A stretch of 38,609 bases of DNA, from assembly GCA_001275005.1 (NCBI GenBank), contig JWZX01003099.1:1-38609 (forward strand), in the 5' to 3' direction. A program made the position numbers and the translations under genes. The notes below the pieces were generated by a model, which searched no databases, was not told the origin of the DNA, and saw only the letters and a list, made by a program, of their open reading frames with translations. The DNA comes from Chrysochromulina tobinii. Lineage: Eukaryota; Haptophyta; Prymnesiales; Chrysochromulinaceae. Each line of letters begins with the position of its first letter. The stretch's first letter is position 1. Of the stretch, positions 9,608 to 38,489 are shown one piece after another.

Positions 9608-11375
9608 TCAATCCGTTTTCGACAGCTTGAGGGCAAAGCTCGTCGACTTGACGTTTCCGAATAGGGGCTTCACCTTCACAGGCTCGAACCCGAGCGATGG
9701 GTACAGCCGCCCATGCGCGTCCGCCTGCAACGTCGAGGTCTCCAGCACGACCCGATGATAGCCCGCTTGATCGCAGAACCGTTTGAGCTCGGCAAACAGG
9801 GCCTTAGCGACACCCGTGCCTGTGATTGGTGGCGAGCACGAAGAGTGGCACTCAATCGCAATCAGTGGTCATCAGTGGCCATCCGTGGCAATCAATCGCA
9901 ATCAGCGGTCATCCGTGGTCATCCGTGGCAAGAGCATACCCCTTGCCCAGCTCGCAACGCTCATCCGACGAAGCTCAGCATCGGTGCCATCAGCTGCGCC
10001 CCTCCACGGCGCGCTCGCCCGTTGCACGGCCACCGTGCCGCACACCTGATGGCCCGTGGCAATTCGTGGCAATTCGTGGTCATCAGTGGCAATTAGTGGC
10101 AATCAGTGGCAATCAGTGGCAATTGGTGGCAATTAGTGGTCATCAGTGGCGCTCGTCAATTCAGTGGCATCAGCCGCACACCTGCCCCGAGGCATCGTCG
10201 ATCGCCACCCAGAAGCAGGAGCCCGGAGAGCTCAGGTAGTGGGCGTAGGGACTTTTCATGTCGTCCTCCAGACACGAGTTGACGTAGTTGCTCGCGAGCC
10301 TTTGAGGGGCCAGCCAATAGACGAGAGCGCTGCACACAAGGGCGAAGCACAGCCCGAGGGCCGCCGGCATCGCAGCAGCTTCAATCTTGAGGTGGGCCGG
10401 CGACGGGGTCTTGAAGGCTGTGACGGTAGCGGCCTGCGCCATGCCGAGGCCGAAGAGCTGCATCGCCATCGCCCAAACCCAATTGCGCGCAATCACACCG
10501 AGGGCGGCCAGAAGGGCCAGCGAGAGAGCCGCCGCACGTCTACACGGCTGCACAAGCTCGGCACGGAGGCCCGAGATGATCGTCTCGTGCATGCCACTCG
10601 CGAATAGGGCAACTGCCGCCGCCTCGTCGTCGGGTCGCAGCACACGCAGGACTAGACCGGGCACGCGCTGTGAAGGCACGAGCTGTGAAGGTACCGGCTT
10701 GGGCGGTGGCCTCGCATCACCGTCGTCACGGTCGGCCGCCTCGCCAGCGGACGCCGACGATGCCGCCGCCGACGACGAAGATGACGACACCTCGTCCAGC
10801 AGCCGCCGGAGCGTCCTCAAGGGGAGGCCGATGACGGCGTCACGTGCGCCTTCCAACCGAGTCACATATGGAGCAAAGAGCGGATCGTCGATGGCGAACG
10901 CACCCGACGAGTTGTAGATGCGTCCTTGCGCGATGGCCTCGTCGATCGTCGACTCGGGGAAGGAGTCGAAGCTCACCGACGCAATCTCGTTTGCAGCGCG
11001 CCGCTCGCCCGTCTTCAAATTGTGGACCACGCAGCCGTTTACACACTCAGCCTTGGAGCCAGCCTGGTAGCTTGCGAGGAATCGGCGTGCCTCTGCTTCG
11101 GATGTGGGCTTCTCGCGGATGCAACCGTCACACACTACGACTTGGTCCATGCAGATCAGGAGCGCATCAGCCGCCGGATCCTCGCTGAGCATCTGCTCCA
11201 CCAACGCATCCGCCTTGGCATTGGCTATCAGCCGGGTGAGAGTCTGTGCGTCAGTGTGCCGAATAGCATTCTCATCTATGTCGGGCGATCGGAACGAGCT
11301 GCGCTCTAGCGGAAAGTGTTCCTCAAAGAGCGCGCGGCGGAAGGCGGACGAGGAGCCGAGAACAAGTCGTGGCAT
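9608..11375 (-). CDS. Maf-like nucleotide pyrophosphatase fused to NAT8-like GNAT acetyltransferase, 3 exons
   Basis: Exons are 11375-10182, 10045-9940 and 9819-9608 (1512 nt, 503 residues). Residues 1-205 are a Maf/ASMTL-type domain: LGSSSAFRRALFEEHF is the N-terminal loop, CMDQVVVCDG the acidic metal site, VNGCVVHN a conserved strand and GARDAVIGLPL the C-terminal signature. Maf proteins hydrolyse non-canonical nucleoside triphosphates. A Ser/Ala/Asp linker leads to a GNAT domain of the NAT8/CML type with two hydrophobic helices (about 285-360), then SSPGSCFWVAIDDASGQ, joined by splicing to VCGTVAVQRA, ELRRMSVASWARG and TGVAKALF. The R-G-T-G-V-A acetyl-CoA loop is only formed after splicing, which supports the model. 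The gene shares 197 bp of 5' region with METTL22. The fusion order is unusual; ASMTL is a different Maf fusion. Confidence 0.85.
9820..9939 (-). repeat. Maf-GNAT intron 2 with 10-bp repeats
   Basis: This 120-nt phase-1 intron runs AGG G|GTATGC...AATCACAG|GC. Much of it is degenerate decamers of the form CACNGATGAC / CACTGATTGC in the sense direction. No convincing exon-edge duplication remains, so it may be an older copy. Confidence 0.75.
10046..10181 (-). repeat. Maf-GNAT intron 1: decamer array with a perfect 12-bp exon-edge duplication
   Basis: This 136-nt phase-0 intron has CAGGTGTGCGGC at both ends. The donor is CAG|GTGTGCGGC in the upstream copy. The acceptor is ATCAG directly before GTGTGCGGC of the downstream copy. 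The interior is tandem TGATTGCCAC/TAATTGCCAC-type decamers in the sense strand. Joining restores GQ|VCGTV of the GNAT fold. Confidence 0.85.
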
Positions 11376-11572
11376 GTCGCGCCCGGAACAGCGCGTCGGT
11401 TGAGCCGGGAAAGAACACTTAACGGTTCAGCATCGTACAAAACACGCACACAACTTCACACACAACTTCACACACCTCTGAATGCGCATGAAAATGGCAA
11501 GGGAAGGACAGGCGATGGTGTGTGTCTGGTCGAGTGGGCCCTGAACGAACGAACGAACGGACTGGCGTGAAA
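11376..11572. promoter_or_regulatory. Divergent promoter region Maf-GNAT / METTL22
   Basis: These 197 bases lie between opposed ATGs. They contain CACACAACTTCACACACAAC-type short repeats and a GAACGAAC run near 11543-11557. No canonical core element is recognised. Confidence 0.45.
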
Positions 11573-12547
11573 ATGGAGCCTCAAGAGACGATCTTGTCCG
11601 ACATGCACGTCCGCGCGACAAGCGGCACGACAAGTTACACGTGGCTCGACCCCGCCTGCGTCGCCGGCGATGACAGTATCTCGAGCTGCGCCGTTGATGC
11701 GGATGGCGACGTCGCGGTCAAGCGACGGCGGCGCAGCAGATGCTTGCAACTGGCTCACTCTAAGGACGGTACATCGTTGGCGGATGTTGGCTTGCAGGTA
11801 TGGCGCGGCGCGCTGCTACTGTGTGATTATCTCATCCACCACGCAGAGCGCTTTCGAGGGCCTCCTTCCGAGCTGGTCGTTCTCGAGATGGGCAGCGGCT
11901 GCGGCCTCTGCAGCCTGATGGCGGCCCAGCTCGGTGCGAGGCTGGTGTACGCCACCGACGTGGGCGACGGCGTGCTGCACAACCTGAGTGCCAACGTGGA
12001 TGCCAACGGACTCCATGACGTACGCGTGCGCGCATTCGATTGGTGCCTACCATGGGTGCCAGGCGACTGGCGGGAGGACGCAGCTGTTGCCTCGTCGTAC
12101 AACTGGCGAGCGAGCGATCGAGCGGCGCTGAGTCACCCACAGCGCGTTATGATACTCGCTGCAGACGTAGTGTACGATGATGACCTCACGGCCGCCTTCA
12201 TCGTCCGACTCGCCGACGTGTTCCGATGGATGCAATCGAGGGTGGAGGGAGAGGGTTCGGCTGCGCGCGAGGTAACGGCCGTCGTCGCCATCGAGAGGAG
12301 ACTGAATTTCGTCCTCGATAGTCTATCTACGTGCGCGCCGGCTGCTGAGCACTTTGAAGCCCTGCTGGCCACGGCGCTCAAAGCGGGCGGTGCGATGGCG
12401 GCGCTGCGGCTCGACGAGCCGCCCCTCGGCGCGCTGCCACAGGCAATGGCGTACGAGCGATGCCCGCAGCTGGCACTGTACGAGCTGTCGCTGCTACCCG
12501 CGGTCGGTGCGGGCGCGTGTGGCGGAACAGAGCGCGCAACATGCTAG
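11573..12547 (+). CDS. METTL22: METTL22-like protein-lysine methyltransferase
   Basis: A single exon encodes 324 residues from ATG 11573 (A at -3), starting MEPQETILSDMHVRA; ETxLSDxH near the N-terminus is typical of METTL22. The SAM-binding motif is VVLEMGSGCGLCSLMAAQLG, followed by LVYATDVGDGVLHN. RVMILAADVVYDDDLTAAF and AIERRLNFVLDSL match the D-V-x-Y-D-D-D-L-T and E-K/R-R-L-N-F signatures specific to METTL22. The human enzyme methylates the DNA-binding protein KIN17; the same role here is an inference from homology. A lysine/arginine patch (VKRRRRSR) could be a nuclear signal. An AATAAA hexamer lies at about 12634, 87 bp after the stop. Confidence 0.88.
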   Translation: MEPQETILSDMHVRATSGTTSYTWLDPACVAGDDSISSCAVDADGDVAVKRRRRSRCLQLAHSKDGTSLADVGLQVWRGALLLCDYLIHHAERFRGPPSELVVLEMGSGCGLCSLMAAQLGARLVYATDVGDGVLHNLSANVDANGLHDVRVRAFDWCLPWVPGDWREDAAVASSYNWRASDRAALSHPQRVMILAADVVYDDDLTAAFIVRLADVFRWMQSRVEGEGSAAREVTAVVAIERRLNFVLDSLSTCAPAAEHFEALLATALKAGGAMAALRLDEPPLGALPQAMAYERCPQLALYELSLLPAVGAGACGGTERATC

Positions 12548-13512: not shown

Positions 13513-16500
13513 TCACGACGCCTTGTCCGCCGCGGGGACTGCCGCGGGGGCCAGATCGAGCGGTTTGAGGACGTGATGGCTGGGCAGCGGCGCGCGTTTG
13601 GGCGGCAATCCACCTGCGAGCGCATTGATCGCGCCAGCGCCGTCGCGCGAGAGACGCGTCTCCATGAAGCCACTGAGCTTCTGCCGCTTGGCGCCGCTGC
13701 CGCCCGAGGTGCTGCTCCGCTTGGCGCGCGTGGCCGCCTTGCGCTTCGTGTTCGAAAACCACACGTCCTCGGTCTTGTAGACGAAGCGTAGCTTGCACGT
13801 CGACGTGGCGATTCGACTCTCGAGGCCGTTGCGCAAGACTGTCGCGTCCCATCGACGCTGCTTGGTGCTCGCGGTGCGACGCAGCAGCATGCGAGATCGC
13901 TTCTCGCGCGTGACGAGCACAAAGGACTTGGTCAGCTCCGCGGCCTCAGCCTTGGCCACCTCGTCCTCCTCGTCCTCGTCCTCGTCCTCGCCCTCCTCGA
14001 CGTCGTCGTCGTCCGACAAATCCTCCTTCTCGGGCAAGAAGGAGAGGACGAGCGCGCCGCCATGCACGCCGCCAGCCGCATAGAGCTGGTCCATGCAGAA
14101 GCAGTCGTCACCCTCGAGCACCATGCGCGCGTTCGAGCGGTACGTGCCCTCCGAGAGTGACCCCGGCAGCGCGCGGCATCGCTCGTACGTGTAGAGCTCG
14201 AGCAGTGTCTGTGAGGCTTCCTCCACGAGCAACATCTGGAGCTGCTTGAGCGCCTGCGAGATCACCTTGTGCAGCGTGAAGAGCGAGTACGCATTCGTGC
14301 CGAGCAGCGTGCGCAGCACGTCCTCGTACGCCGAGGCCTCCATCTTACCATCGATGAGCTGGCGCAGGCACGAGATGAAGGCGAGATACATGTCGCCCTT
14401 GCACTCGTCACGAATCCGCTGCAGCTCGCTCGCGCGGTTGAGCGCTTCGGCCGACGCTTCATCGACGCCGTTGGCCGCGCTGCTGCTCGCCGCCGCCGCA
14501 TCGGCCTTGGAGGCCGCCGCCTCCGCGTCCGTGATCTGGCGCGACGCGTACTCCTTGGCCGCCTTGGCCGCCATGTCCTTGGCTGCGTCCAGCCGCATCA
14601 GGATGATATGGTACAGGCGCACGAAGATGTAAAAGTGCGAGTTGCCAATGAACTTCTGGTGGGACGTCTTCGAGTAGCTGAGCGGCATGAGCCAACGACT
14701 CTCGGGCGGCCGCGCGTCACGGGTCGCCGCCTCCTCGCCCACATCCGCCGACACGATCAGGAGGGGCTTGTGCCTCCTGGGCGGAGTCGTCTCCTGCGGA
14801 TCAACGTCCATCGCGTCGGCCGCGGCCGCCGACGAGTCGGAGGCGACGGCGGCCGTGCCGGCGGCCGTGCCGTCGGCGGCGCCGCCCTCGCTCGCCTTGC
14901 GCGCAAGCACCTCGGCGTCCGCGTCGGGGCACACAAAGAACTTTCGCACAAAGTTCTTCCAGAAGGCGCGCAGCTTCTCGTCGATGTCGCCCTCGACGAC
15001 GCTGAAATTGAGCTTGGCGCCGAAGGTCATCAGCGCCAGCGTGTCGTTGTGGAGCTCGGCGAGCGTCGCCGCCTTGACCGTGAACGGCAGCGTGAGCGAC
15101 GTGGGCGGCGCGAGCGGCGGCAGCGAGCCCTCACCGCTCGCGCCTGCCGCCTTGTTGGCCGCGGCCGCGGCCGCCGCGCTCGTCTCTTCGTCCCCAAGGG
15201 TGGCTCGCAACGCGGCGGCGTTCTCGCCGTCGGCATTCTCGCAGAGCGCCTTGAGCTCCATCACCATTTGCTTGCCCGAAAAGTTCTTCTTGTCGCCCTG
15301 CTTGAAGTAAAACGAGCGATGGTCGAGCGCCTTCGTGTAGTTCTTCTCGTACACCTCCTTCCACGTCTTGCCGCACTGGCGGCGCAGCTCCCGCCACTCC
15401 TCGTCCTTTTGCCTCAGCCGAGTCAGGAGAGGCGCGACCGCGGCCGCCGGGCACTTGTGCATCATCTCGATGACCTGCGCGCCCTGCGCGCCGTAGAGCC
15501 GCCGGATAGACTTGCAGTGCATCGCGGAGAGCACCTGCGGCAGTTTGTACCGACGCTTCTCCTGCTCCGAGAAGCGCTCGATCTCGAGCGAGATTGTGGT
15601 CAGGTACGTGAGTGTGCACTGGTTGGTCTCGATGGTCGTGTCGAGCTCGAAGCGCTCGTCCTCGGCGCGGAAGATGCACTCCTCGTACTGGTTCTTGCGC
15701 AACGTCTTGAAGTTGAGATCCTCGGTGCCCGTCGCGACGCTCACCCAGGTGTCGTTGAGCACCAGCGTCTCGAGAGGTCCGCGGCCCGATGAGGGCGGCA
15801 CCGGGTGCGTGTCGGGCAGCTGGCGGTACGAGGTGCCGTGCCGGCGCATCGTCGTGAAGTCGAGCTCGCGGAAGTTGCCGCCCTCAGCCATGGGGGCCGA
15901 AGAGGTCGCCGGCGGCGACGGCACGTCGCGCGTCTGCTGCTCCACACCGCCCGAGTAGCCGAGGAGTTTGCGGAAGGTGCCGAAGAGCTCAAACTGGGAG
16001 CGCTTGAAGAGGTCGTGCACGAGCGTGAGCAGCTCAGACCGGTCGAGCACCTGCTGCGAGTACAAGTTGAGACACTTGAGCAGCTCGAGGTAGAGCGGCT
16101 TGGGCATCCGATTGCGACACTTGGAGAAGAACTCGGCCTCGGGCGAACGAGCGGCGGCGTCCACCCGCTTGCTCTCGTCCTTGCGGCCGGGCGGGGGCGG
16201 CCCGCCGCCGGGGCCATTGCGACGCTTCTGCCAGAAGCGCTCATCCTCCTCCTCCACCGGGCCGACTGGGCGCGGGCCGCCTGGACCGCTCATCGGCGCT
16301 CCGCCCTTGGCGCCAGGCCGCTGCGCCACGGGCTGCTTGAGGCCGCCTCCCATGCCACCCATGGGCGGTCCAAGCAGGCCACCCTTGCCCTTGCCCTTGG
16401 GCCCTCCGAGCAGCCCGCCCGCCTCGGGCGAGCCGTCGGGCAGGAACTGTGAAAACTCGCTGAGCAAGTCGGTATGGCTCTTGAAGAGGTGAGAGACCTG

Positions 16501-17903
16501 CTCGTACACCTCCTTGATGGTCTTCTGCTCCTTTTGGTACGTGTGCAGGATTTCGAGGAAGGCCTTGTACGTCTCGGGCTGCTTGGCGAAGCGCGTCTTA
16601 ATCTTGGTCACGTAGTTGATCGCCTGGTCGAACTCGATGGGGGCCTTCTTGTTGGCAGGGGCCGCGGGCGGGCCAGGCGGAGCGGTGTCCATCGGCTGGC
16701 CACCCATCCGGTCGTACCCGACGGGCCCCACCCCAGCCGCCCCGTGCGGCACCGAGAGCGGCACGGGCTGCTGCACCTGCGCCTGCACCGCCGCCGCCGC
16801 GTGCGCCGCGTTCATCTGCGCAAAGCCCTGCGGCTGTGGTCCTGTCATCCCTGGCGGATACTTGAGCTGCACGCGCGGCTTGTTCTCGTCTTCCGAAAAC
16901 TCGATCTTGTACCCGGGCGGCTGCGAGCGAGACGGCACCAAAGCGCACCACCACACGGTCGGCGGTGCGAGCGTCGCGCGGCGCGCGCCACCGATGCGAA
17001 GTGCCTTTGGGGGGGGAGGCTAGCGAGCAGCTGGGTGCAAAGCTGGGCGCTGTGCAGCGGGGCGCCGTGCAGGGCGCCGTGTTGGGCGCACCAGGAAGGT
17101 GTTGAAGCCGAGAATGAGCTCGCGGTGGCCAAAGAAGAGGTTGAGCACGCGGTCGATGACGCCCGGCGTGTCAATGCTCTGCGCCTTGAACTCCTTCATG
17201 ATGTCGAGGAACTGCCACAGGACGCGCGCGCACGCGAGATTTCGTCAATAAGCCGGCGTGTGCGCGTGCGCGACGCGCGCACGAGAGTGTCCATCACAAT
17301 GGCGCCGGGCGCGACGCGGCTCCGGCGTGCGGCGCACGCGCCATCGAGACAAGGCGCGCGCGCGCAAGCGCATACCTTGTTGTAGATCTGAGGCTGCTTC
17401 TCGAACTTCATCTTGACTTGGTCCAGATACGCGAGGGCGTCCTCAACCTTGAGCTGACGGTAAGGCTGCGGTTGAGCCGCCGGGCCGCCGGGTGCCATGG
17501 GCACGTTGCCACCAGGGAGCGGGCCCTGCGGCTCGTACTTGATTGGCGCGTCGGGCATCGACACACCGCCGCGATCAGGCTGCTGCCCACCCATCACGCC
17601 TGGATTCGGAGCGCCTGGCATGGGGCCAGGCCCGCCCGGGGGACCCTGTCGTCCGGGCTGTTGCATGGGGGGCATTCCCGAGGTGGGTGGGAGCTGGCCC
17701 ATTGGCATTGGCGGCCGCGAATCGCCCTGCGGCGCCGAGATTCCAGCGTGAGGCGCAGAGGATGACAGAGGCGGGAGGATGGGTGCCGACCCCCCGGCCA
17801 TCGCGGGGTTTGGTGGCGCGGCGCTTTCGGCAGGCTTGTCTGACATGGTGGCGGGCTCGGTTGTGGGTGCGGTGTCCATGGACTCGTGCTTGATCTCAGA
17901 CAT
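13513..17903 (-). CDS. SIN3: SIN3 transcriptional corepressor, 3 exons
   Basis: Exons are 17903-17376, 17211-17092 and 16920-13513 (528 + 120 + 3408 nt, 1351 residues). The N-terminus is a Pro/Gly/Met-rich tail. PAH1 begins [18 protein letters not shown] and is completed only by splicing through exon 2 ([25 protein letters not shown]) to [11 protein letters not shown]2 starts [20 protein letters not shown] and PAH3 starts [20 protein letters not shown]. The HDAC-interacting domain is clear: [32 protein letters not shown] and [21 protein letters not shown] long C-terminal SIN3 domain follows, with an acidic [18 protein letters not shown] patch and a basic tail. SIN3 scaffolds class I histone deacetylases onto DNA-bound repressors. 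It is head to head with a CXC-domain DNA-binding protein, a possible functional pairing. Confidence 0.95.
16921..17091 (-). other. SIN3 intron 2 (ordinary type)
   Basis: A 171-nt phase-0 intron, CTG|GTGCGC...TCTCGCTCGCAG|CCG. It is GC-rich with short GGCGCCNTGCA repeats and no decamer family. Joining gives [13 protein letters not shown], the expected end of PAH1. Confidence 0.85.
17212..17375 (-). other. SIN3 intron 1 (ordinary type)
   Basis: A 164-nt phase-0 intron, AAG|GTATGC...CTGTGGCAG|TTC. It contains purine-pyrimidine alternating GCGCGCGC runs that could adopt Z-DNA. Joining gives [14 protein letters not shown] inside PAH1. Confidence 0.88.
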
Positions 17904-25767: not shown

Positions 25768-26904
25768 TTAGTCCATCCACTTAACATACCGATACCAGGA
25801 GGCTGGGTAGTGGGCACGCTCTATGAGCAGCGGGGGTGGCAGGTCTGAAGTCGAACTCATCGTCGTGAGCATTTTGCCAGGCACGAGGGCGTCGCAACCT
25901 GTTGCGGGCCGCCCTTTGCAGCTGGGCTCGCCTCTGCAGGTGCGATTCTGAATTCCTCTGAGATCAAGGCAGTGGCGCGAGCAGCGCTCGAGACGCGCCA
26001 AATCGGTCAGGTTGCTGCGAAGGAAGATGCCGTGGTGACTCCACGTTCGCAACTTGCGCGCGAGGTCCCAAGGCTCGCCGAATGAGGTGAAGTGCCAACC
26101 TGCGTTCGGTATGGTCGGGTAGCTCTCGTGAAGAGGAGCCGACCATACGCGCTCGCGATACCCGGTGAAGCCCGTGCTCATCTCACCGAGAGCCGCGGGT
26201 GTGGCGTTTTCATATTGCCCATACATTGCCTGGAGGGTGGCGGCGCTGAAGGCTCGCGTGCCATGCTTCCAATCGTTGCCAATCTGGCAATGCACTCCAT
26301 ATTGGTAGAGCGACAGCTTCAGAATGTAGAAGAACGGCCTCTCCTTCGAGGCAGCATCACCGTCAAAGGGATAGCACTGAGCGAGCATGCGCACGACGTC
26401 TGGCTTGGCAATCTCGTCCGTGTCGCCAAAGAGGGCTAGGTCTCCTGGCGACGCGAGCTCGATGACCGTCTCGACCAATACGAAGCGCTGAAAGGCTTCG
26501 AAGCACATCACTCTGTTGTGCACCCACCTGCCGCCTTGGCAGTAACGAGCACTGCCCTGATGAAAGTCGACGACCCGCACTGTCATCTTGGTTGCCAAGC
26601 TTTGCCAAGCTTTAGGCACGGAGCCGTTGGCCAACAGCGATGTGAGCACCAACGGTTTCGCGGACCTGGCCGTGTGCGTGGTGCTCGATTCTGCGATGAC
26701 AAAACGATCGACGACCTCACCAAGCGTTTGCAGGTGCAACCAAAGCATATCGAGCTCGAAGCCAAATGGGATGCAGTCCCAAATCCTACGGTGCTTTGTC
26801 GGCGAGTCGGGCACGATAGGGTGCTGATCGCGCGTGTGGTTTACAAACCTGCTTGACCGCGGCCCAAACGAGACTCTGCGCAGCGCCGCGGCGCAGCTTT
26901 CCAT
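25768..26904 (-). CDS. GT17-family (MGAT3-like) N-acetylglucosaminyltransferase
   Basis: A single exon encodes 378 residues from ATG 26904. The GT17 signature is clear: RRIWDCIPFGFELDMLWLHL followed by VVDRFVIAESSTTHT matches the family's F-x-x-E-L-D-x-L and FVI-x-E-S blocks. LALFGDTDEIAKPDVV is the D-x-D-E-I metal/nucleotide site, and GWHFTSFGEPWDLARKL is the conserved late motif. Animal MGAT3 adds the bisecting GlcNAc to N-glycans in the Golgi; GT17 members are widespread in algae and fungi with untested substrates. No N-terminal membrane anchor is visible, so either a 5' exon is missing or targeting differs. It lies near a large predicted glycosyltransferase gene on the same strand, with no evidence of joint regulation. 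Confidence 0.87.
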   Translation of the reverse strand: MESCAAALRRVSFGPRSSRFVNHTRDQHPIVPDSPTKHRRIWDCIPFGFELDMLWLHLQTLGEVVDRFVIAESSTTHTARSAKPLVLTSLLANGSVPKAWQSLATKMTVRVVDFHQGSARYCQGGRWVHNRVMCFEAFQRFVLVETVIELASPGDLALFGDTDEIAKPDVVRMLAQCYPFDGDAASKERPFFYILKLSLYQYGVHCQIGNDWKHGTRAFSAATLQAMYGQYENATPAALGEMSTGFTGYRERVWSAPLHESYPTIPNAGWHFTSFGEPWDLARKLRTWSHHGIFLRSNLTDLARLERCSRHCLDLRGIQNRTCRGEPSCKGRPATGCDALVPGKMLTTMSSTSDLPPPLLIERAHYPASWYRYVKWMD

Positions 26905-27895
26905 CGCGTATAAATACACACTTTGCGAAAAGGCCGGATTTGGACACGGGGGACAACTACCGTTACCGCGTTAGAATGTTACCACTTCCGTGTATACATG
27001 TTAGCCGAACGCGTACCAAGACCGTGCGAAAATATCCAAATAACATCTTCCAGAAGGTTGCTTCTGCTTCAGAATTTAGAAAATTGATTTCCGCGACAAG
27101 AGTCGACTAGGCTCTAGGGCCCAGAGGCCTGCAGCGGCACCGCGTCCGCGACACCGTTCTCGGTTCTCAAGGTGACGAGGTCTCCGCGGTCCAGCCCCGA
27201 ACCCGTCACGGTAGTTGGATCTAAAAAAAATACAGTTACATAACGATTCGCGGTTTGTACCGTCGACGACGTACATTATAGATATAGTAGCAGTGAGCAG
27301 AATGGCACATGTGTAACGTAAGGCCGGCCGATCGATGGTGAATAGATGGAGAATGCTTGCCGTTCGGTCCCGGCGTAGTCCCGGCGCTCATGCCTTCGGC
27401 TGCGACTCCGCGCCTGAGGTTGAGCGTGTCTGGACGTGGGCACCCGGCGGGCAGTGCGGCACGCCTCCGCTGCCCGCCGTGGTCCTCTCTCTCTCGCTCT
27501 CTCTCTCTCAGACCTGCAATGAACGGCCGCCGCCGCGGCGGGCGGCGCTCGTACGCCCCCCCGGGCGCACGTGCTTGAGCGCGGGGAGTCACCCAAGCGT
27601 CCGCGGGGCTTGTGGAGTAGCTCACCTGATGAGGGAGGCCATCACAGGTCATCAGTGATCATCAGTAGCAATCACAAGCGTCCGCGGGGCTTATGGAGTA
27701 GCTCGCTTGATGAGGGAAGCCATCAGTCGCTTGATGAGGGAAGCCATCAGTCGCTTGATGAGGGAAGCCATCAGTCGCTTGATGAGGGAAGCCATCAGTC
27801 GCTTGATGAGGGAAGCCATCAGTCAGGATAAGTCGCAAACAGAGGCCATCAGTGGCAATCACCCCCATCGCAGTCCTCGGTGATGAGGGAGGCCA
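26905..27895. other. Intergenic region, possibly with a 3' exon of the large glycosyltransferase gene
   Basis: It begins with the GT17 5' region, which holds TATAAATA and CTTTGCGAAAAGG at 26910-26933. It then has an AT-rich stretch and CT microsatellite (27483-27511). From 27570 it is filled with decamer-family repeats and a 24-bp tandem repeat. An alternative terminal exon of the downstream-ending glycosyltransferase gene could run 27625-27236 (phase 0, CATCAG|GTGAGC, 129 residues). Its Arg/Pro-rich composition makes me doubt it is coding. Confidence 0.4.
27704..27823 (-). repeat. 24-bp tandem repeat x5 related to the intron family
   Basis: Five identical 24-bp units contain CTTGATGAGGGAAGCCATCA (sense strand TGATGGCTTCCCTCATCAAG). 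The unit is a compound of the decamer family with its CCCTCATCA terminus. It lies in the 3' region of the large minus-strand gene, within a probable last intron or 3' UTR. Confidence 0.9.
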
Positions 27896-30800
27896 TCAGT
27901 GGCAATCAGTGGCAATCACCCCCATCGCAGTCCTCGGTGACCGTGGCCGAGTCGACCACACCGGCGGCTCGGCAGGTAGCTCCGCCTCCTTGTCCACCTC
28001 GTGCATCGAGTCTTGCGGGGGGGGATGCGAGGGACCATTGCAGCTTCGTGCTGGCCGGTGTTTCTTCGAGTTGCTGCCGATATCTGCATCGGCGCCGGCG
28101 CCGCCGCCGGCGCCGCCGCCGCTGCTGCTGCTCCCACCGCGGTGCTTGACACTGTGAATGACGAGGATGAAGATAAACCCCACGACAGAGAGAAAGAACA
28201 TCAACCCTAAGATCGCCCGCCGTTGCGCCCGCTGCATCTCCGGTCGGGGCGCCGTACCGAGCACGTCCTGCCTAATTAGGAGCGCCTCGTTCTCAGGGCG
28301 CACGCTACCGGGTAGCGGCTCGTCCTCGTGCAATACGTCGCGAGATTCGCGCTCCGTCGGAAGCTCCGCCTGATGAGGGAGGCAATCAGAGGTCATCAGT
28401 GGTCATCGGTGGAAATACGTCGCGAGATTCGCGCTCCGTCGGAAGATTCGCGCTCCGTTGGAAGCTCCGCCTGATGAGAGGAGCCATCAGGCGCACTCTG
28501 GCGCACTCAGCGATTCGCTCACCGGGGCAGTGAGGGTGGCGATCAGCGATACGCTCACCGGGGCAGTGATGAGGGTGGCACTCAGCGATTCGCTCACCGG
28601 GGCAGTGAGGAGGGTGGCACTCAGCGATTCGCTCACCGGGGCAGTGATGAGGGAGGCGAAGAAACCGGTAGGGGCGCGATCCGTGCCCACCAGAAGCTTA
28701 TCAGTGAGGTCAATCTCGCGGCACATGCGATGATCGCTGCCCGTGTCGGCCTGAACTCTCTTTCCATGCGCTCCCTTGCCCTTAGCAGCACTGAAGCGAG
28801 TCGCCTTGTAGGAGCGGGTCGAGCGTACGTACCTATGTGGGGAGGAGGGGGCGCCGTGGTGAGCACGTGCATGCAAGCAGCGCCCTGTGGGTCGAGCGCA
28901 CGTACACGTTGCGGATGCGAATGTAGTCGCCACGCCGCTGTTTGGGCGACGGGGACGAGTAGTAGAGCTCGAGGCGGTCCATGCTGTCCCAGGGAGTGAG
29001 CCCGGGGTAGTAGTAGTATGCGTCCTAATTTGGGAGGTGCGCATGATGAGGTGATGATGAGGTCATCAGAGGTCATCAGAGGTCATCAGAGTTCATCAGA
29101 GGTCATCAGCGGCCCTCGTGGCACCTGGATTGGGATGCTGAACGAATGCCACGTGGCCGCCCGCCACCCCCCCGGAGGCTGCGGAATCAAGAACTGCACT
29201 CCCTTGACATTATTCTCCTTCGTGTACTCAAACACGTGCAGCACGTGCGACGTGTTCGAGACGAAGACCTCCATCTCAATGGAGGCATTCGCGAGCAGCC
29301 GGCCGTCCCAGCCCACGATGGCGCTCAGGTTGGTCGTCAGCAGTTGCAGCTTGCGATCGGGTCCGAATTGGCCGAGGATGCCGTACCTGATGCAATCAGA
29401 CGCAATCAGACGCAATCAGAGGCAATCAGAGGCAATCAGATGAAATCATATTCAATCATATTATTCAATCGGATGCAATCAGACGCAATCAGACGCAATC
29501 CTACGCAATTTGACGCAATCTGACGCAATCTGACGCAATCTGACGCAATCATATGCAATCACACGCAATCATATGCAATCATACGCAATCATATGCACTC
29601 AGACGCAATCATACGCAATCAGACCGCAATCCTACCGGTTGGGTAGGATGTCAAAGCGAGCAATCCGACGGAAGAGAGGCAAGCACGAGTCCGAGCCCTT
29701 GCGTGTGTAGTGCATCGTCTGCGGGCTGGCGCGCCCCGCGCTCGAGGCGCTCTCGACGGCGCGTGCATGCAGCGCGTGTGAGAGAGGAGAGTACGAGTTG
29801 AGTAAGAGCACATCCGCGCCCGTGCACACCGCATGCGCGATCAGTAGATGCGCCTGGCTCTCTCCAACTGGACGGCCCCCGAGCATCACCTGCATGCAAT
29901 CGGTCGCAATCAGTCGCAATCAGTCGCACTCAGTCGCAATCGGTAGCAATCAGTCGCAATCAGGCGCAATCAGGCCTCCGAGCATCACCTCGGCCGCCTC
30001 GGCCGCCTCCGCAAGAGTGTAGAAGGTGGATCCCATCGCGAGGGTCGCTCCGCTTGCGAGGGTGCGCGGTAAAGTACGCACGCCGTCAGAGAGGATGAAG
30101 ACTGGATCTTCCATCGGAAGTCGCGGCAGATTGGCAGCGAGCACGTCGTGGTTGACGTGGCATGCCATGCCTGATGAGGGGGGCAATCGGAGCTCATCGG
30201 AGCTCATCGGAGCTCATCGGAGCTCATCGGAGCTCATCGGAGCTCATCGGAGCTCATCAGCGATGCTCAGCGGCTCCATGTGGCATTGCATGCCTGAGTC
30301 GAACCGCTGATTGCCTCAATCAGATGCACTCAGATGCACTCAGATGCACTCAGATGCAATCAGATGGAACATGTGGCAGGGCATGCCTGAGTCGAACATG
30401 GTGCGGACCCACTGTCGACCATAGGATGAGGAGCCCGCCTCGGCGTCGTACCTGATGCACGGGGCAATCGGAGGCGATCAGAAGGACCTCCGATGTCGGC
30501 AGGCAGAGGTCATCATGGGCTTTGTACCTGATGAGGGGGGCAATCCGTTGCAAACAGTTGCAATCAGACTGATGAGGGGGGCCATCCGTTGCAATCCGTT
30601 GCGATCCATCACACTCCGAGGCCATCCTCGCTCATCAGAGGTCATCCTCGCTCATCAGAGGTCATCAGTGGTCATCAGAGGTGTCATCAGAGGTCATCAG
30701 TGGCCATCCTCGCTCATCAGAGGTCGCTCATCATCAGTGCTCATCAGAGCTCGGCTTCGGCAGCGTACCCGATGAGGGATGCAATCAGAGGTCATCAGAG

Positions 30801-33800
30801 CTCATCAGAGCTCGGCGTCGGCAGCGTACCCGTCGCACACAGACGAGGGCAGTCGGCCATGGTACGGATCCGAAGAGACGAAACTCGATGAGGCGCCGTC
30901 ATGGCCCAATTGACGAACCTCGATGGCCATCTCTCCGTTCTCGAGGACCTCGGCCGAAAACGGGCGCGACTGCGCCGCTGGCTGCGCGAGGTCGGTGAGC
31001 GCCTCGAGTTTCGTCCACGCCGATGTGGTGAGCACGGCCGCGTCCAAGTCGGACAGATGCACGCACGAGTACCGGCGGGTGGCGAGTCGTAACTGCTTGG
31101 TCACCGCCGCTGCGGCAGCGTGCACCTCGGCGGTTTCGCTCCATAGAAGGGTGCCGATGCTTGCCCACCATGCGAGATCCGCCCGAGATCGTGCGGAGAT
31201 CCGCATGAGTTGGTCACGAGATGCAACCTCGTCCCCAATCGTGCGCCCGTCCGAGATGGAGGCTGATGGCGTCTGATTACCAACCTCATCCCCCATCGTG
31301 CGCCCGTCCAAGCTGTGGAACCCATCGAAGGCGGCGTAGAAGTGCGAGATTGCGAGCACCCGATCTCGGCACGCGCCGTACAGGCGCTGGTAGTCGAACG
31401 AGGAGCCCATCTGTGAAGACACGTGCACCTCGCTCACCTGTGAAAACGAGGGACGGGGCGCGCCGTGGTGAGCACGTGCATGCTGGGCGAGGAGGCCATC
31501 TGTGACGACACGTGGAGCGTGCACACATTCGCCCAGCCGAGGACGTTGTCAAAGTAGGTGCGCGAGGGCAGCAGGCGAGGGTCCTTGGCGTGCAGCATCA
31601 CCAAGCGCGTGGGGCGCAGCCCGAGCGCGAGGAATTCGGCCATCTCGAGCGCCCCAGGAGAGAGCGCGAGCAGCGAGCCCATCTCGAACAATCTCGAGTA
31701 GCGCGCGAGCTGCTGCAGGCTGCCGTCGAGGAGCAGGTGGGGCACCACGAGTGCGCGCCCAAGACTACGCGCGATCGCGAGCGCATTTTTGAGGCTGACG
31801 AACCATTCGCCGAGCCCGCTGTGAGGCTGGTAGACAAGGTAACGGCGAGCCGAGCTGCCCGTGACGGCGCCCGTGGCGGCGCCCGTGGCGGCGCCTGTTA
31901 CGGGCGGGCGACGCAAGCCACCGAGCGTCGTCCCGAGCGCCGCGCCGTCACGGGCGCCGCCGCCCGCGCCGTCGCGCGCGCCGTCTCGGGCGCGGCTCGA
32001 GGGCAAAAGGGCGATCTGGGCATCGAGATCATCCAATGCGCAGCCGACGCCGCCGAGGGCGATGGACGCGCTGCCGCGGGCGCTGGCGCTGCTGGTACTG
32101 CTGCTGCTGCTGCTACTGCTGCTGCTACTGCTGCTGCTACTGCTACTGCTGCTACTGCTGCTGCTGCTGGTACTCCTGCTGCTGCTGCTGGTACTGCTGC
32201 TGCTTCCGCGACCGCCGCCCACGACGGCGCCTCGGCTGGCGACGGCGCCGTCGCCGGACACGTCGCGGGCGGTGGAGTACTCAAGTTGCGGTGTGTACTC
32301 AAGTTGCATCCCTGACCAGAGGGCGGCGAGGGCCGCGTATTCCTCGACGATGCGCTCCTTCTCGGCGGGCGTCGGCGCGCTCGTCGCGTACCGTGCGCCC
32401 CACCATCGGATATTCTCCGAAAAGGAGAAGCCCTGCGTGATGAGAGCTGGGAGGGTACGGCGCTGGTGGTGCAGATCGAAGGTTGGCAGCTCTTCGTGCG
32501 CGGGCATTTGACGAAGCACGTTGGCCACCTGTGGGGAGAGGGGCGGGGCGCTATGGTGAGCACTTGCATGCGAGCGGGCATTTCACGAAGCACGTTGGCA
32601 TTTGACGAACCTCGACGAGCTCGAGCTCGGAGAGTAGAGGCGTCGTCTTGAGCTCGTCCAGGTCGGTGCGCAGCGCGTCGGTGATCGCCTGCCTCACCCC
32701 ATCTGTGCCGGTATGGTCCCCTCGTTCCATGTAGGTCGTCGAGAAGGCCTGCGGCAGAACGTCCAGCCGACTCTCAACGGTGAAGAGTAATCAAGGGCAC
32801 TCCAGGGAGATCAAGGGAGATCAAGGGAGATCCAGGGAGATCAAGGGCGATCCAGGGAGATCAAAGGCGATCCAGGGAGATCAAAGGAGATCAAAGGAGA
32901 TCAAGGGCGATCCAGGGAGAGCCCACCTGCTGGTGCCTCATGTTCGGGTAGAGCATCACATAGCCTCGGCCGTACATGTAGTCAACCATGAAGCGCTTCC
33001 ACGAGCGCGGCCACACGTTGGAGCGCGAGCGCGGCAGCAGCACCGCCGGGTCTCCGAGCGGCTCGCGGTTCTTACCCACGCCACGCTGATGGGCCTCCTG
33101 CGTGAAGTTGAAAAAGGGCGGGCGCGCGCGCGCGCGGTAGAAGCGCACGAAGTCGCGCCACATCGAGCCGAGGTACAGAGCGCCCCACGAGCACGGCACC
33201 TGCAGCAGAAAGGCGTTCGCCGCGGTCGCCTTGTCGGGCAGCCATCGCACCTGCGGGTAGACGATCTCATTGAGGCGCGGCGTGTACAGGCTGACGCCCA
33301 CGAGGCGCTTCGCGCGCATCGCGCGCCCGTCGTCGAAGTCGCCGTACGCGCTCGCCGCCCGCAGCAGCCACCAGTAGAAGAGCGGAGAGACTTCGATGTC
33401 ATCCTCGAGCGGAAGCACGTGCTCGTCGTCTCGTAGGTCGTCCGCGCGCGAGCTGTTGATCCACATGCCACGGATGCCCATCGGGCGGTCGAACTCGACC
33501 ACCTCCTTCGGGCCGTACGGCCAGTCCAGTCCGCGCACGAAGTCGACCACCTCCGGCAGCGCGCCGCTGTCAAGGACCATGCGGAGCGGCACCGTCCGGT
33601 TGCAGTAGCGCGCGCGCTTGAGCGACGTGATGAGGCGCACCAGGGAGGGCATCCGGCGCCACGCGAAGGCGATTATGGTCACGTTGAGCTGCAGCGCACC
33701 CGGCGCGAATTCGGGCGTATCGCACACGTCTGCGTATTGCACCAGCGGCTCGGAAGGGTTATTGTCGTCGTAGACGGTGGTGAAACTGCCATCGGTATCT

Positions 33801-33952
33801 CCGATCGTAGCACGTGCCGGACGCGTTGACCAGCTCTGTGAGCTACCTAGTGACGAGGAGAAGCCCAGCAGCAGCAGCAGCAGCAGCATCGTGAGCACGA
33901 GCAGTGCGACGAGGCGATGTAGCCGGCTTAGGCCTGGCGCTCGTGGCCGCAT
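27896..33952 (-). CDS. Two-domain glycosyltransferase (GT-A-like + O-fucosyltransferase-like), 11 exons, membrane anchored
   Basis: Exons: 33952-32927, 32772-32611, 32528-31527, 31437-30830, 30451-30387, 30170-29989, 29889-29636, 29386-29125, 29024-28906, 28832-28637, 28369-27896. They sum to 4350 nt, a continuous frame of 1449 residues. Residues 12-35 are a signal anchor (VALLVLTMLLLLLLL). Residues ~70-340 look like a GT-A domain with LPLEDDIEVSPLFYWWL as the acidic D-x-D-type site, VGVSLYTPRLNEIVYP and LLQVPCSWGALYL. A poly-Ser stretch follows. Residues ~626-1100 resemble GDP-fucose protein O-fucosyltransferases (RYLVYQPHSGLGEWF, LAIARSLGRALVVPHLL, RYSCVHLSDLD, late GADVLLLNSYS). A beta-sandwich-like region (DRLELYYSSPSP) and a second hydrophobic helix (1344-1366, AILGLMFFLSVVGFIFILVI) end the protein. 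The 3' end, intron 1 acceptor and intron 10 donor are the weakest junctions. A Golgi role is inferred. Confidence 0.72.
28370..28636 (-). repeat. GT-fusion intron 10 with tandem donor sites and a decamer element
   Basis: This 267-nt phase-0 intron has donor CCG|GTGAGC at 28636. The same GGTGAGCG donor recurs at 28597, 28558 and 28522 in 39/39/36-nt tandem units, all in frame. The 3' half contains two copies of the downstream exon edge (CATCAG|GCGGAGCTTCC) around a TGATGACCTCTGATTGCCTC element. An alternative donor CTG|GTGGGC at about 28685 is also in phase. Confidence 0.6.
28833..28905 (-). repeat. GT-fusion intron 9, GCATGC-core family
   Basis: A 73-nt phase-2 intron. Its first bases GTACGTGCGCTCGACC repeat as exon 10 start GTACGTACGCTCGACC (1 mismatch in 16). 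The interior core is GCATGCACGTGCTCACCACG and the acceptor is CCCACATAG. Confidence 0.82.
29025..29124 (-). repeat. GT-fusion intron 8, TGATGACCTC decamers
   Basis: A 100-nt phase-0 intron, CAG|GTGCCA...CAAATTAG|GAC, with tandem TGATGACCTC units (29069-29109). No clear exon-edge duplication remains. Confidence 0.72.
29387..29635 (-). repeat. GT-fusion intron 7, long TGATTGCGTC decamer array
   Basis: A 249-nt phase-2 intron, CCG|GTAGGATTG...GCATCAG|GTACGGC, consisting almost entirely of about 24 decamers such as TGATTGCGTC and TGATTGCATA. Joining gives PNR-YGILGQFG. Confidence 0.85.
29890..29988 (-). repeat. GT-fusion intron 6, decamers with 16-bp exon-edge duplication
   Basis: A 99-nt phase-0 intron. 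GTGATGCTCGGAGGCC at its 5' end is repeated as GTGATGCTCGGGGGCC at the start of exon 7. The interior is TGATTGCGAC-type decamers and the acceptor is GCATGCAG. Confidence 0.87.
30171..30386 (-). repeat. GT-fusion intron 5, GC-AG intron with two element insertions
   Basis: A 216-nt phase-1 intron with a GC donor, CTCAG|GCATGCCC, and acceptor CATCAG|GCATGGC. The exon-edge sequence (ACTCAG)GCATGC..TGCCACATG occurs again in the middle (about 30275-30300). Two separate arrays flank that copy: TGCATCTGAG decamers (30321-30360) and GATGAGCTCC decamers x7 (30191-30260). Confidence 0.8.
30452..30829 (-). repeat. GT-fusion intron 4, repeatedly invaded 378-nt decamer intron
   Basis: Phase 2, GG|GTACGCTGCC...GCATCAG|GTACGACGCC. 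Further exon-edge-like copies GTACGCTGCCGAAGCC and GTACAAAGCC lie inside, each directly after (C)CTCATC(A)G. This looks like at least three successive insertions. Joining gives VCDG-YDAEAGSSSYG. Confidence 0.82.
31224..31309 (-). repeat. 29-bp exon duplication around a 28-bp insert (in frame)
   Basis: Positions 31224-31252 and 31281-31309 are near-identical 29-mers (sense start GGACGGGCGCACGAT). They flank a 28-bp insert containing GTAATCAGACGCCATCAG in the sense strand. The 57-nt period keeps the frame open, so it may be coding or a mini-intron GAG|GTTGGT...GACGAG|GTTGCA. Confidence 0.75.
31438..31526 (-). repeat. GT-fusion intron 3, GCATGC-core family
   Basis: An 89-nt phase-0 intron, AAT|GTGTGC...TTTTCACAG|GTGAGC. 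GTGTCGTCACAGATGGCCTC inside it is repeated as GTGTCTTCACAGATGGGCTC in exon 4. The core is GCATGCACGTGCTCACCACG. Confidence 0.82.
32088..32205 (-). repeat. CAG/CTG-type microsatellite encoding poly-Ser
   Basis: An imperfect CTG/CTA triplet run on the plus strand is read on the minus strand as AGC/AGT codons. It gives about 35 serines between the two glycosyltransferase domains. Confidence 0.9.
32529..32610 (-). repeat. GT-fusion intron 2, GCATGC-core family
   Basis: An 82-nt phase-0 intron, GAG|GTTCGT...CCCCACAG|GTGGCC. AACGTGCTTCGTGAAATGCC inside it duplicates exon 3 AACGTGCTTCGTCAAATGCC. The core is GCATGCAAGTGCTCACCATA. Confidence 0.82.
32773..32926 (-). repeat. GT-fusion intron 1, TTGATCTCCC decamers
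   Basis: A 154-nt intron from CAG|GTGGGC, made of about 12 TTGATCTCCC / TGGATCGCCC decamers. The acceptor is tentative (GTTGAG|AGTCGG), chosen for frame. The same decamer fills the Myb-gene intron at 37121-37352. Confidence 0.65.
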
Positions 33953-36538: not shown

Positions 36539-38489
36539 TCAATGGTTGTACTGGCTGCCAGTAGAGGCGGCAAAGGCGCCGCCCAATGGCGAATCAAAGC
36601 CCGCGGTCGTGAAGCCGTCGGTCGTCGAGGGCGAGTCGCCATAAGACCACGCGCCCGTCATCCCAGGGACGTAGTTCAACGGTCGGCCGGGCGCGAGGAC
36701 CAGCTGCTGCCGCCGCTGCCGGTCCTCGTAAATGTTCTGTAGCCGATGAAAGCGGTTGCGGATGGCGTGCTCAGTGCGACCAGGTAGCCGATCGGCGAGT
36801 TTACTCCATTTATGGCCTAGCTCCGCGACTAAGCTCAGGATGGCGTCATCTTCGGCCTTGGACCAAGAGACCCGGGGCTCGGCGGCTCGGATGGCGACAC
36901 TCTCCGCTACGTGGCCACGGCGCGCTGATGCCGAGGGCAAGCTCGCACCGAGGGTCGCGCCATGGTGGGCGCCCATTGTCGCGCCGCTGGCGATGCCAGG
37001 CGCCATCGTGGGCGCCATCGCCATGCCGCCCGCCTCGGCCGGTGCCTCGGCAGCGGGCGCCGGCGCGGCGACGCCGTCGTCGGCCACCTCGACGAGCACG
37101 CTCCCACCGACGTCGCCGGCCTGGCGGGGGGAGATAGCGAATCGGGGGAGGGAGGTCAAGGGAGATCAAGGGAGATCAAGGGAGGGAGGTCACGAGGGAG
37201 ATCAAGGGAGATCAAGGGAGGGAGGTCAAGGGCGGTAGAGCGTCGGGCAGCGCCATGGTGGGCGCCATCGTCTGCCCGCCGACCTTCTCTCTGCAGCCTG
37301 CAGATCGTCGGGGGGAGATCAAGGGAGATCAAGGGAGATCAAGGGAGCCGACCTTCTCTCTGCAGCCTGCAGGGGTGTCTCTGGGGGCGGCGTCTCTGGT
37401 AGAGGCGGCCTGTTGAAGACGGAACCAGCGGTTACGCACAGCGTCGTCCGAGCGACCAGGCAGTTCGACGGCAATCTTGCGCCAGCAGCACCCGTGCTCC
37501 TGCACCGCGCGCTGGATGATGCAGTCCTCGAGGTCTGACCACTCTTTGCGCTCGGCGCCGTTTCGAGCGGGTTTGAGGCCCAACGCCAGCTGCCTATTTA
37601 GGAGACTGCCCTGTGGGGTTGCGCCGAACGAGGGGGCGGTCGAGGGCGGAGCGGTGGCGGCTGGCGGCAGCTGTAGCGAGGCATAGGGCGCCGTGGTTGG
37701 CGCGAGCACTTGCCCGGGGAGATAGCTGCAGCTGTGAGCAATCGGCAGGGCGTCGTATGAGGCGTCGTATTTGTTACGGGGATTGTGCGGCCCATACCCG
37801 TCATGACGGGGATTGTGCGGCCCATACCCGTCATGACGGGGATTGTGCGGCCCATACCCGTCATGACGGGGATTGTGCGGCCCATACCCGTCATGAGCGC
37901 CGTGCGGCACGCCCAGCGCGAGATCGAGCGGGAGATCGAGCGGGAGATCGAACGCGAGATCGAGGTTGGCTTCGTCAGGCTCGTCTTCATCGGGGCGCCC
38001 GTTCAACGGCTGCCCGATGGTGAGCCCGGGACGGCGATGGAGCATGGCAGGGGTCGGGTGCGTGAATGCACCCGCGAGGTGCACGGGCGGCGCCCCGAGC
38101 GCCGCTCCGCTCTGCGTGGGCGCCGCGGCCGGCAGAGCCACGCCAGCGTCCTCATCCATGCCATGGCAGACCCATTCAAATGCTGGCATGGCATACAAAG
38201 CCTCGGAGGTCGTGCCAGCATGGGGTCTGTAGGGATTCGTGCCGGCATGGGGTCTGTGGGGATTCTTCGCCGGGGGGGCGGCGGCGGCCGACATCAAGTG
38301 CGCCGGCCGCAGCGGCGGGTACATCGACTGTTGTTGGAAGGCGCGCGGTTGGGCGGCCTTTGCCTTCGCCTTGGCCGCCTCCGCGCGCCTCGTGGCCTCG
38401 TGCGCCTCGACCTCGGCCGCCGCGGCCGCCTCGTCAGCGGCGATGGCCTCCAGCAAAGCGAGCTCGTTAGCCGTTGGCTTGCGCCTCAT
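36539..38489 (-). CDS. Myb/SANT transcription factor with two separated repeats, 2 exons (N-terminus may extend beyond the window)
   Basis: Exons are 38489-37353 and 37120-36539 (1137 + 582 nt, 572 residues from ATG 38489). The frame stays open 5' of that ATG to the window end as Ala/Pro-rich sequence, so the true start may lie outside. The N-terminus has an Ala/Lys-rich helix. Then there are four 10-residue repeats (GYGPHNPRHD) after a DLPLDLPLDL run. Myb repeat A is at ~315-362 (KEWSDLEDCIIQRAVQ ... LPGRSDDAVRNRWFRLQ) and repeat B at ~463-512 (VSWSKAEDDAILSLVAELGH ... LPGRTEHAIRNRFHRLQ). Both keep the first two aromatic anchors and the recognition-helix NR. About 100 Ala/Gly/Met-rich residues separate them, unlike classical adjacent R2R3 repeats. 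DNA binding is likely; targets are unknown. Confidence 0.78.
37121..37352 (-). repeat. Myb-gene intron of TTGATCTCCC decamers
   Basis: A 232-nt phase-0 intron, AAG|GTCGGC...CCGCCAG|GCCGGC. Two arrays of TTGATCTCCC-type decamers surround a copy of the upstream exon edge (CTGCAGGCTGCAGAGAGAAG, repeated about 70 bp apart). A cryptic middle exon is possible. The decamer matches intron 1 of the glycosyltransferase gene. Confidence 0.72.
37771..37890 (-). repeat. Coding 30-bp tandem repeat x4
   Basis: Four in-frame copies (three identical, one with a changed edge) encode HDGYGPHNPR in the Myb gene. The near-identity suggests recent expansion. Confidence 0.93.

Follow-up and report, generated by a model that had tools for sequence, protein, structure and literature searches.

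The closest described counterparts of the introns studied here are introners. In the accessible part of the survey of Gozashti et al. 2022 (PMC9860276), these are similar introns found at many sites with a duplicated target, in which the element brings one splice site and the target-site duplication (TSD) the other, in either polarity, and the length of the mRNA is mostly restored. Published duplications measure 3-9 bp in the families known earlier and 4 bp in those of Chrysochromulina sp.; the survey also covers Symbiodinium, and most introner families in it are read as DNA transposons. We analyzed a contig of Chrysochromulina tobinii (JWZX01003099.1, C1940 in our numbering), whose 38,609 nucleotides are hereafter called the window, and in which a minus-strand gene of 11 exons holds introns made of two repeat families, A and B. 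We consider it probable (about 60%) that these belong to an introner-like system, in which pieces of existing introns are copied as staggered insertions of the form T-E-T, where T is the duplicated target and E the element, and are spliced out with one T. Similarity at many sites, the duplicated target, the division of the splice sites and the mostly restored mRNA length appear here too, but the duplications of this system are about 12-44 bp long and variable, both polarities are built round one core, and the spread is partly local. Our family A is compared with the Chrysochromulina sp. introner family (PMC9860276) by published description.

Other systems share part of this anatomy, as far as the accessible text of each report goes. 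New introns of Daphnia pulex (PMC4202315) have a direct repeat of the exon end at the opposite end of the intron, are polymorphic in populations and are modelled by staggered breaks; such repeats are present here too, but those of Daphnia measure 4-12 bp, and in our genome one element, with 1,958 core matches, recurs as the insert. The introner elements of Amoebophrya (PMC7789003) are likewise repeated protist introns with direct repeats at exon borders, but their direct repeats are given as 3-5 nt, they have inverted repeats (8-20 nt) and their splice sites are non-canonical, whereas our introns are GY-AG and no inverted repeats were seen in them. In Cryptococcus (PMC2395259), introns gained through expansion of a repeat also gave local, polymorphic copies in one gene; there, existing introns were multiplied in a repeat, whereas the introns studied here occupy new positions and have exon duplications of their own. 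A set of 213 introns has been described (PMC11782384) in which every member has direct repeats of 4-30 bp at its borders or close to them; their mean is 11.4 bp and, in the accessible text, no common inserted element is mentioned. Introners have also been reported in mirusviruses (PMC12768974), and we found no link between these, as described in the text available, and A or B. In the open-access literature searched, we found no description of variable duplications of such length with recurring elements in haptophytes.

The bulk origin of new spliceosomal introns is a long-standing question. In this system a complete splice site, donor or acceptor, comes from the duplication, some copies can be traced to other introns, in many cases on the same contig, and an empty allele makes the insertion step measurable by population sequencing.

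Exon-edge copies in the host gene

The preliminary description of the window had proposed a frame open for 4350 nt over 11 exons, with introns 2, 3, 4, 5, 6 and 9 starting with a near copy of the next exon. Rebuilding the model on the minus strand reproduced the 4350 nt, from a start at 33952 to a stop at 27896. The protein has homologs in Prymnesium parvum (59%, covering 27% of the query), in a metagenome-assembled genome (MAG) of Prymnesium sp. (55% over 28%) and in Emiliania huxleyi (37% over 42%), which points to a haptophyte close to Prymnesiales; it matches O-FucT weakly, under the Pfam cut-off, and PF10250 is present in relatives. Aligned with 11 haptophyte-type homologs, the spliced protein shows a gap of 0 or at most one residue at introns 3, 4, 5, 7, 8 and 9 in the rows covering them (homolog P0012 is absent from the alignment at those junctions from intron 5 onward), for example at RIRN^VYVRSTRS and ILPN^RYGILGQ. 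Junctions 2, 6 and 10 fall in poorly conserved protein, outside the reach of this comparison. At intron 1, eight residues of the model are missing in 11/11 homologs, and we therefore moved the acceptor 24 nt downstream, to a CCGCAG at which colinearity is regained. With this one change to the proposed model, exon 2 starts at 32748 and the frame measures 4326 nt (1441 aa). The 3' end of the gene is uncertain because the stop sits inside a family B array flanked by a duplication.

We compared the start of each intron with the start of the next exon, in register over 60 nt, using wrong pairings and permuted partners as null. Scores were 21.5, 7.5, 9.0, 13.5 and 14.5 for introns 3, 4, 5, 6 and 9, whose runs measured 39, 15, 14, 16 and 17 nt, respectively. 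The 90 wrong pairings had a mean of 2.0 and a maximum of 8.0, which is exceeded singly by introns 3, 5, 6 and 9; intron 4 is not significant singly, since its score lies below that maximum. The summed score was 74 against a permutation mean of 25.8 (p about 1e-4, 20,000 permutations). Intron 2 has its copy out of register, with a local score of 23.5 against at most 10.5 for wrong pairings. Hence the six near copies of the preliminary description are present, one of them out of register and one weak, and no in-register copy was found over these 60 nt in introns 1, 7, 8 and 10. The gene holds three minus-strand A copies (32571, 31483 and 28874), plus 10-bp arrays with CCCTCATCAG-like ends.

Two repeat families and their modes of insertion

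We searched the genome (53.15 Mb, 2253 contigs) for both families, and the totals that follow are motif counts, not proven introns. The 25-bp core of family A (GCATGCANGTGCTCACCACGGCGCC) has 1,958 matches on the two strands (929 + 1029; C form, at most 3 mismatches), and the same pattern read backwards has 0 genome-wide. In 274 cases an exact core is followed, 5-20 nt on, by CCCCACAGG. Family B consists of arrays of ~10-bp units, GATTGCNNCT and related ones, that close with GATNGCCTCCCTCATCAG, a motif with 2,927 matches (1408 + 1519; 1 mismatch) and 0 in the backwards control. The head of A, ending in GATTGCCACTGATGACCTGCCTT before GCATGCA, has 197 matches (at most 3 mismatches). Since this head includes two B-like 10-bp units, A and B are not wholly unrelated; they are two families with different ends, the same anatomy and akin 10-bp units. 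The A core contains CTCAC, which we take to be a possible branch site. A special fold of the core was considered and rejected, as folds of the core and its parts (four strings) were no better than shuffles (z 0.26, -0.56, 1.17 and -1.50). No known RNA family or tRNA was found in the window. Neither a poly-A nor a tandem 3' tail was seen in the sampled A copies, which end in polypyrimidine-AG or near the core end, and no terminal inverted repeats were seen by eye, no systematic search having been run. As side observations, the antisense A core (e.g., 28850-28874 on the plus strand of the window) contains a donor-like GGTGAGCAC, which might allow the core to form introns when inserted the other way round as well; a stretch with two A copies is common to C692 (7451-7516) and C760 (18888-18953), either as haplotigs or by duplication.

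We sampled 88 loci in addition to the window, with 190 distinct A copies at up to 4 mismatches, 123 of them with polypyrimidine-AG after the core; this sample is biased, since loci were picked by core match and from among the first matches listed. A duplication (score of at least 12) flanks 90/123 acceptor-bearing copies, against 5.05% of 2435 shuffled pairs, and also 52/67 copies without acceptor. In mode 1, the donor lies in the upstream copy of the duplication, as had been proposed for the host gene. The duplications of this mode start at the first base after the AG in 66/90 cases, have a mean identity of 95% and measure 13-44, plus one of 59 spanning nested units. A donor-anchored run gave 73 introns with a median T of 26, of which 23 have no mismatch (15-36 nt); this run had no null, and the donor consensus GTRCG inflates the first bases of its matches. 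Most of these introns (58/73) are 65-84 nt long, the left gap from T to core is 0-36 nt, and lengths modulo 3 are 30/15/28, so that 43 would shift the frame if retained. Roughly a third of the intron consists of duplicated sequence, whose length is anticorrelated with the remainder (rho -0.59), which is as intron-length selection would give and is partly built in, both being cut from one length.

The location of the donor does not hold throughout. In mode 2, head-bearing A copies bring their own donor, and the duplication ends in AG at the 3' end of the intron and is the acceptor. Among the 35 copies with head and core, 24 have an AG before a GY donor, and 15 of these 24 have a duplication, against 1.7% of shuffled partners; T measures 12-35 nt and the intron 66-86 nt. 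The 15 include two units of a single array, L128. Therefore, one core serves introns of both polarities. In mode 3, some A copies carry no splice signal. Locus L015 has nine such cores between 850 and 1900. They occupy six places and are flanked by duplications of ~17-35 bp; eight of them point the same way and the ninth the opposite way, and all nine periods are multiples of 3. The cores are read through by an 875-codon minus-strand frame, and a 594-codon plus-strand frame also covers the stretch; either of the two may be the gene, and the inserts are apparently translated. These copies imply that insertion with duplication does not depend on splicing. Automatic classing gave 65 mode-3 rows with periods modulo 3 of 27/11/27 (11/4/5 for the 20 non-nested ones), not confined to multiples of 3, and it put several mode-1 copies in this class by alignment drift over the polypyrimidine or nested units; mode 3 is thus stated only for cases read by eye. 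Iterated tandem units of T plus core are present at L022, L024, L034, L043 and L053, and we read them as later amplification.

The case for family B is weaker than that for A. Of its 68 distinct ends, 44 score at least 12 (17.4% when shuffled) and 29 at least 20 (4.5%), several of these rows being iterated units of one locus (e.g., L102). The B duplication starts exactly after the end motif in 26/40 of those with 13 or more. Taken against shuffled controls, these results bear out the earlier claims that repeated elements make intron-like inserts with target duplication at many places, and that the duplications are longer than usual TSDs. The length of the duplications varies widely.

An empty allele, partly local spread and probable splicing

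A search of IMG/VR for the A core gave a single match, in record L139 (IMGVR_UViG_3300027760_000958), and none for the one B pattern sought. This record is phage-like by eye up to about 4180, and 4181-4554 aligns to contig C608. It is most likely a chimeric assembly, hence it is no evidence for viral transfer, and on this IMG/VR search we set viral carriage aside. In C608 the site is filled by an intron (11516-11590) made of GTGCGAGCTCGTGGCGAGCGTTACC and 50 bp that contain the A core and end in CACAG, and it is followed by GTGCGAGCTCGTGGCGAGAGTTACC. At the same site L139, which represents a close allele from a metagenome, has one copy of the duplicated sequence and nothing else. The two differ by 75 bp, i.e., a 25-bp T and a 50-bp E, GT...AG, and the empty form is identical to the spliced one at 223/229 nt, with one frame kept. 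At least one insertion is therefore recent, as expected if the system is active or recently active, which had been suggested before. The alleles also differ in the copy number of a 10-bp unit (TGACGAACCC) at 11690-11880 of C608, with fewer copies in L139, and L139 is without 14 nt within the duplicated copy of the next A intron.

Sequence-similar and presumably intronic copies stand at many places: 110 acceptor-bearing A copies are at least 150 bp apart, 70 of them in 25 multi-copy contigs. Copies on one contig have private variants in common. By core and tail, the nearest neighbour is on the same contig for 16.9/70, against a permutation mean of 1.55 and maximum of 6.1 (1000 permutations). 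The tail alone gives 14.8 (maximum 7.2) and the 8 nt before the core 18.3 (7.1); nt -16 to -9 give 5.5 (6.9) and the 8 nt past the acceptor 5.2 (7.3). The mean distance of the 8 nt before the core is smaller within contigs (p 0 of 1000). A 5' linker of at least 8 nt, with one mismatch allowed, is shared by 26/259 same-contig pairs against 280/17,995 others, many of these 280 through the common head. From C1665:3538 to C124:4167, on another contig, 20 nt are shared with one mismatch, mostly the duplicated exon of the first site. From C665:2690 to C665:6650, 4 kb apart, 24 nt are shared, 15 of which lie in the first site's own exon copy. These two pairs suggest the direction of copying and, together with the shared linkers, they indicate that intron pieces serve as template, often but not only nearby. 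The genome has 26 matches to reverse transcriptase domains, 22 over the cut-off, which show only that the activity may be available.

Homology and reading frame argue that the inserts are spliced. In seven frames, chosen by eye from 64 spliced frames, a Pfam domain above cut-off spans the junction in four: DSPc (115-247, junction 207), ferrochelatase (74-314, junction 227), RRM (165-231, junction 228) and JmjC (155-268, junction 235). In the other three, RedAm-like_C spans the junction below cut-off, mTERF ends before it, and one frame has no domain. By eye, splicing restores TGTPLQN in L039, presumably the SNF2 motif, and a stretch in L005 that we take to be biotin-carboxylase-like. Judging from the host-gene homologs and four of the seven Pfam junctions, excision of the element with one duplication appears to restore the coding sequence.

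Mechanism and alternatives

In the introner-like system that we propose, short pieces of existing introns would be copied to new sites as T-E-T, with T a target of about 12-44 bp and E an intron-derived piece of about 25-70 bp. Two arrangements would let the spliceosome take out E with one T and leave an exactly restored mRNA: a T starting with GT or GC combined with an E that has a terminal AG (mode 1), or a T with a terminal AG combined with an E that starts with GT or GC (mode 2). With neither arrangement, E would persist only where it is harmless, e.g., in frame. Insertion may take place at staggered breaks or nicks, where tens of bases are filled in and a fragment of an intron becomes the insert, and the exact junctions and the intron size of ~65-85 nt may be the outcome of selection. 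The template could be either DNA, by template switching, or excised intron RNA. The exact AG ends of mode 1 would suit an RNA template, and selection for restored mRNA explains them as well. We favour templated insertion at staggered breaks, which is unproven; a fixed-stagger transposase is a poor fit because T is variable. A more specific version, which we regard as possible if doubtful, is that introns multiply from introns: fragments round the 25-nt core would be pasted nearby across staggered breaks of ~12-44 bp, a gene with one such intron would act as a local seed, and either half of the intron could be replaced by duplicated exon, so that the result would be a mobile intron that has to bring just one splice site and does not have to encode a transposase.

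Several observations weigh against this proposal. The 25-bp core of core-only inserts is sharp, which points to a discrete element and not to arbitrary fragments. No duplication reaches the threshold in 33/123 acceptor-bearing A copies, and only 12/26 in-register B duplications start with GT or GC, so that many of these are not splice-site donors, or are nested units. Three of the seven Pfam junctions have no spanning domain above cut-off, and RRM goes only 3 residues past its junction. There is a single empty site, and its insert in C608, being 75 nt long and open in frame, could be retained as 25 codons; the empty site alone therefore does not prove splicing. Finally, the mean distance of core and tail is not lower within contigs (8.94) than between them (8.23, p 0.84), the members of at least one same-contig pair (C783) belong to a single tandem array, and an appearance of locality could also result from gene conversion.

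A classical introner, i.e., a non-autonomous DNA transposon moved by a transposase and leaving a TSD, would account for the many near-identical cores, for the T-E-T form and for a duplication that gives a splice site as in published introners, and with two B-like units in the A head the two families may be one lineage. We nevertheless find it rather unlikely, as T varies: mismatch-free copies next to nearly identical 25-bp cores measure 16, 20, 29 and 35 bp (L053, L015 and L043, tandem arrays in which slippage may have acted), mismatch-free runs in mode 1 span 15-36, and T is 25 at the empty site, in place of a constant duplication of 3-9 bp. Moreover, the core folds no better than shuffles, and reading by eye showed no terminal inverted repeats. 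The system is thus introner-like, and its earlier equation with the DNA-transposon introners of Micromonas and Aureococcus is not supported. Variable duplications and 5' truncation are what one would expect from retroposition, in which excised intron RNA, or an RNA like that of short interspersed nuclear elements (SINEs), is reverse-transcribed at a nicked target. The target duplications are indeed variable, the right end of mode 1 lies exactly at the AG (66/90) while the left end varies (0-36 nt) and carries sequence of other introns, and reverse transcriptase domains are present. Yet core-only inserts stop before the acceptor and occur in both orientations in one open stretch, mode 2 is anchored at the opposite end, no poly-A was seen, and selection for restored mRNA explains the exact AG ends equally well, which makes this origin unlikely.

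The remaining alternatives dispense with an inserted element. If pieces of exon that hold splice signals were simply duplicated in tandem or through replication slippage, the iterated units of T plus core would be explained, but the same core occurs at well over a hundred sampled places, and the empty allele, with one T and no core, contradicts this reading there; such duplication is very improbable as the origin and remains for secondary amplification. That these are ordinary satellite-rich introns, alike only by splice-signal consensus and low complexity, is scarcely credible: 10-bp arrays are many and GTRCG inflates the first matched bases, but shuffled partners with the same consensus and composition reach 5% where A reaches 73%, 1.7% where mode 2 reaches 63%, and 4.5-17% where B reaches 43-65%. 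We rejected an origin of the duplications by chance or consensus on such controls for A, B, mode 2 and the host gene.

Coordinates and surrounding sequence

Features of the host gene and its 3' flank, in positions of the window
Feature	Coordinates	Strand	Description
Host gene	27896..33952	(-)	11 exons; 1441 aa with the corrected intron 1
Intron 1 (corrected acceptor)	32749..32926	(-)	10-bp array; without exon-edge copy
Intron 2	32529..32610	(-)	family A, core from 32571; next exon copied over 26 nt, not in register
Intron 3	31438..31526	(-)	family A, core from 31483; 39-nt in-register exon-edge duplication
Intron 4	30452..30829	(-)	family B arrays, CCCTCATCAG-like ends; weak duplication
Intron 5	30171..30386	(-)	GC donor; family B; 14-nt in-register duplication
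Intron 6	29890..29988	(-)	family B array; duplication GTGATGCTCGG(A/G)GGCC
Intron 7	29387..29635	(-)	long family B array; without exon-edge copy
Intron 8	29025..29124	(-)	short B-like array; TTAG acceptor; without exon-edge copy
Intron 9	28833..28905	(-)	family A, exact core 28850-28874; duplication GTACGT(G/A)CGCTCGACC
Intron 10	28370..28636	(-)	39-bp tandem units, B element and internal copy of next-exon start (read by eye)
Further B arrays and duplications around and past the stop codon	27600..27945	(-)	24-bp units, two direct duplications, read by eye

Two neighbouring genes lie on the minus strand of the window in long open frames, a glycosyltransferase of family 17 (PF04724) at 25768-26970 and a SIN3 co-repressor (PF02671, PF08295 and PF16879) at 13513-17019. 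Beyond the host gene, B-like 10-bp arrays (ATCAGTGGCC, GTGGCAATTA and AGGGAGATCA) are found at 9845-9931, 10056-10150, 37146-37232 and 37313-37347.

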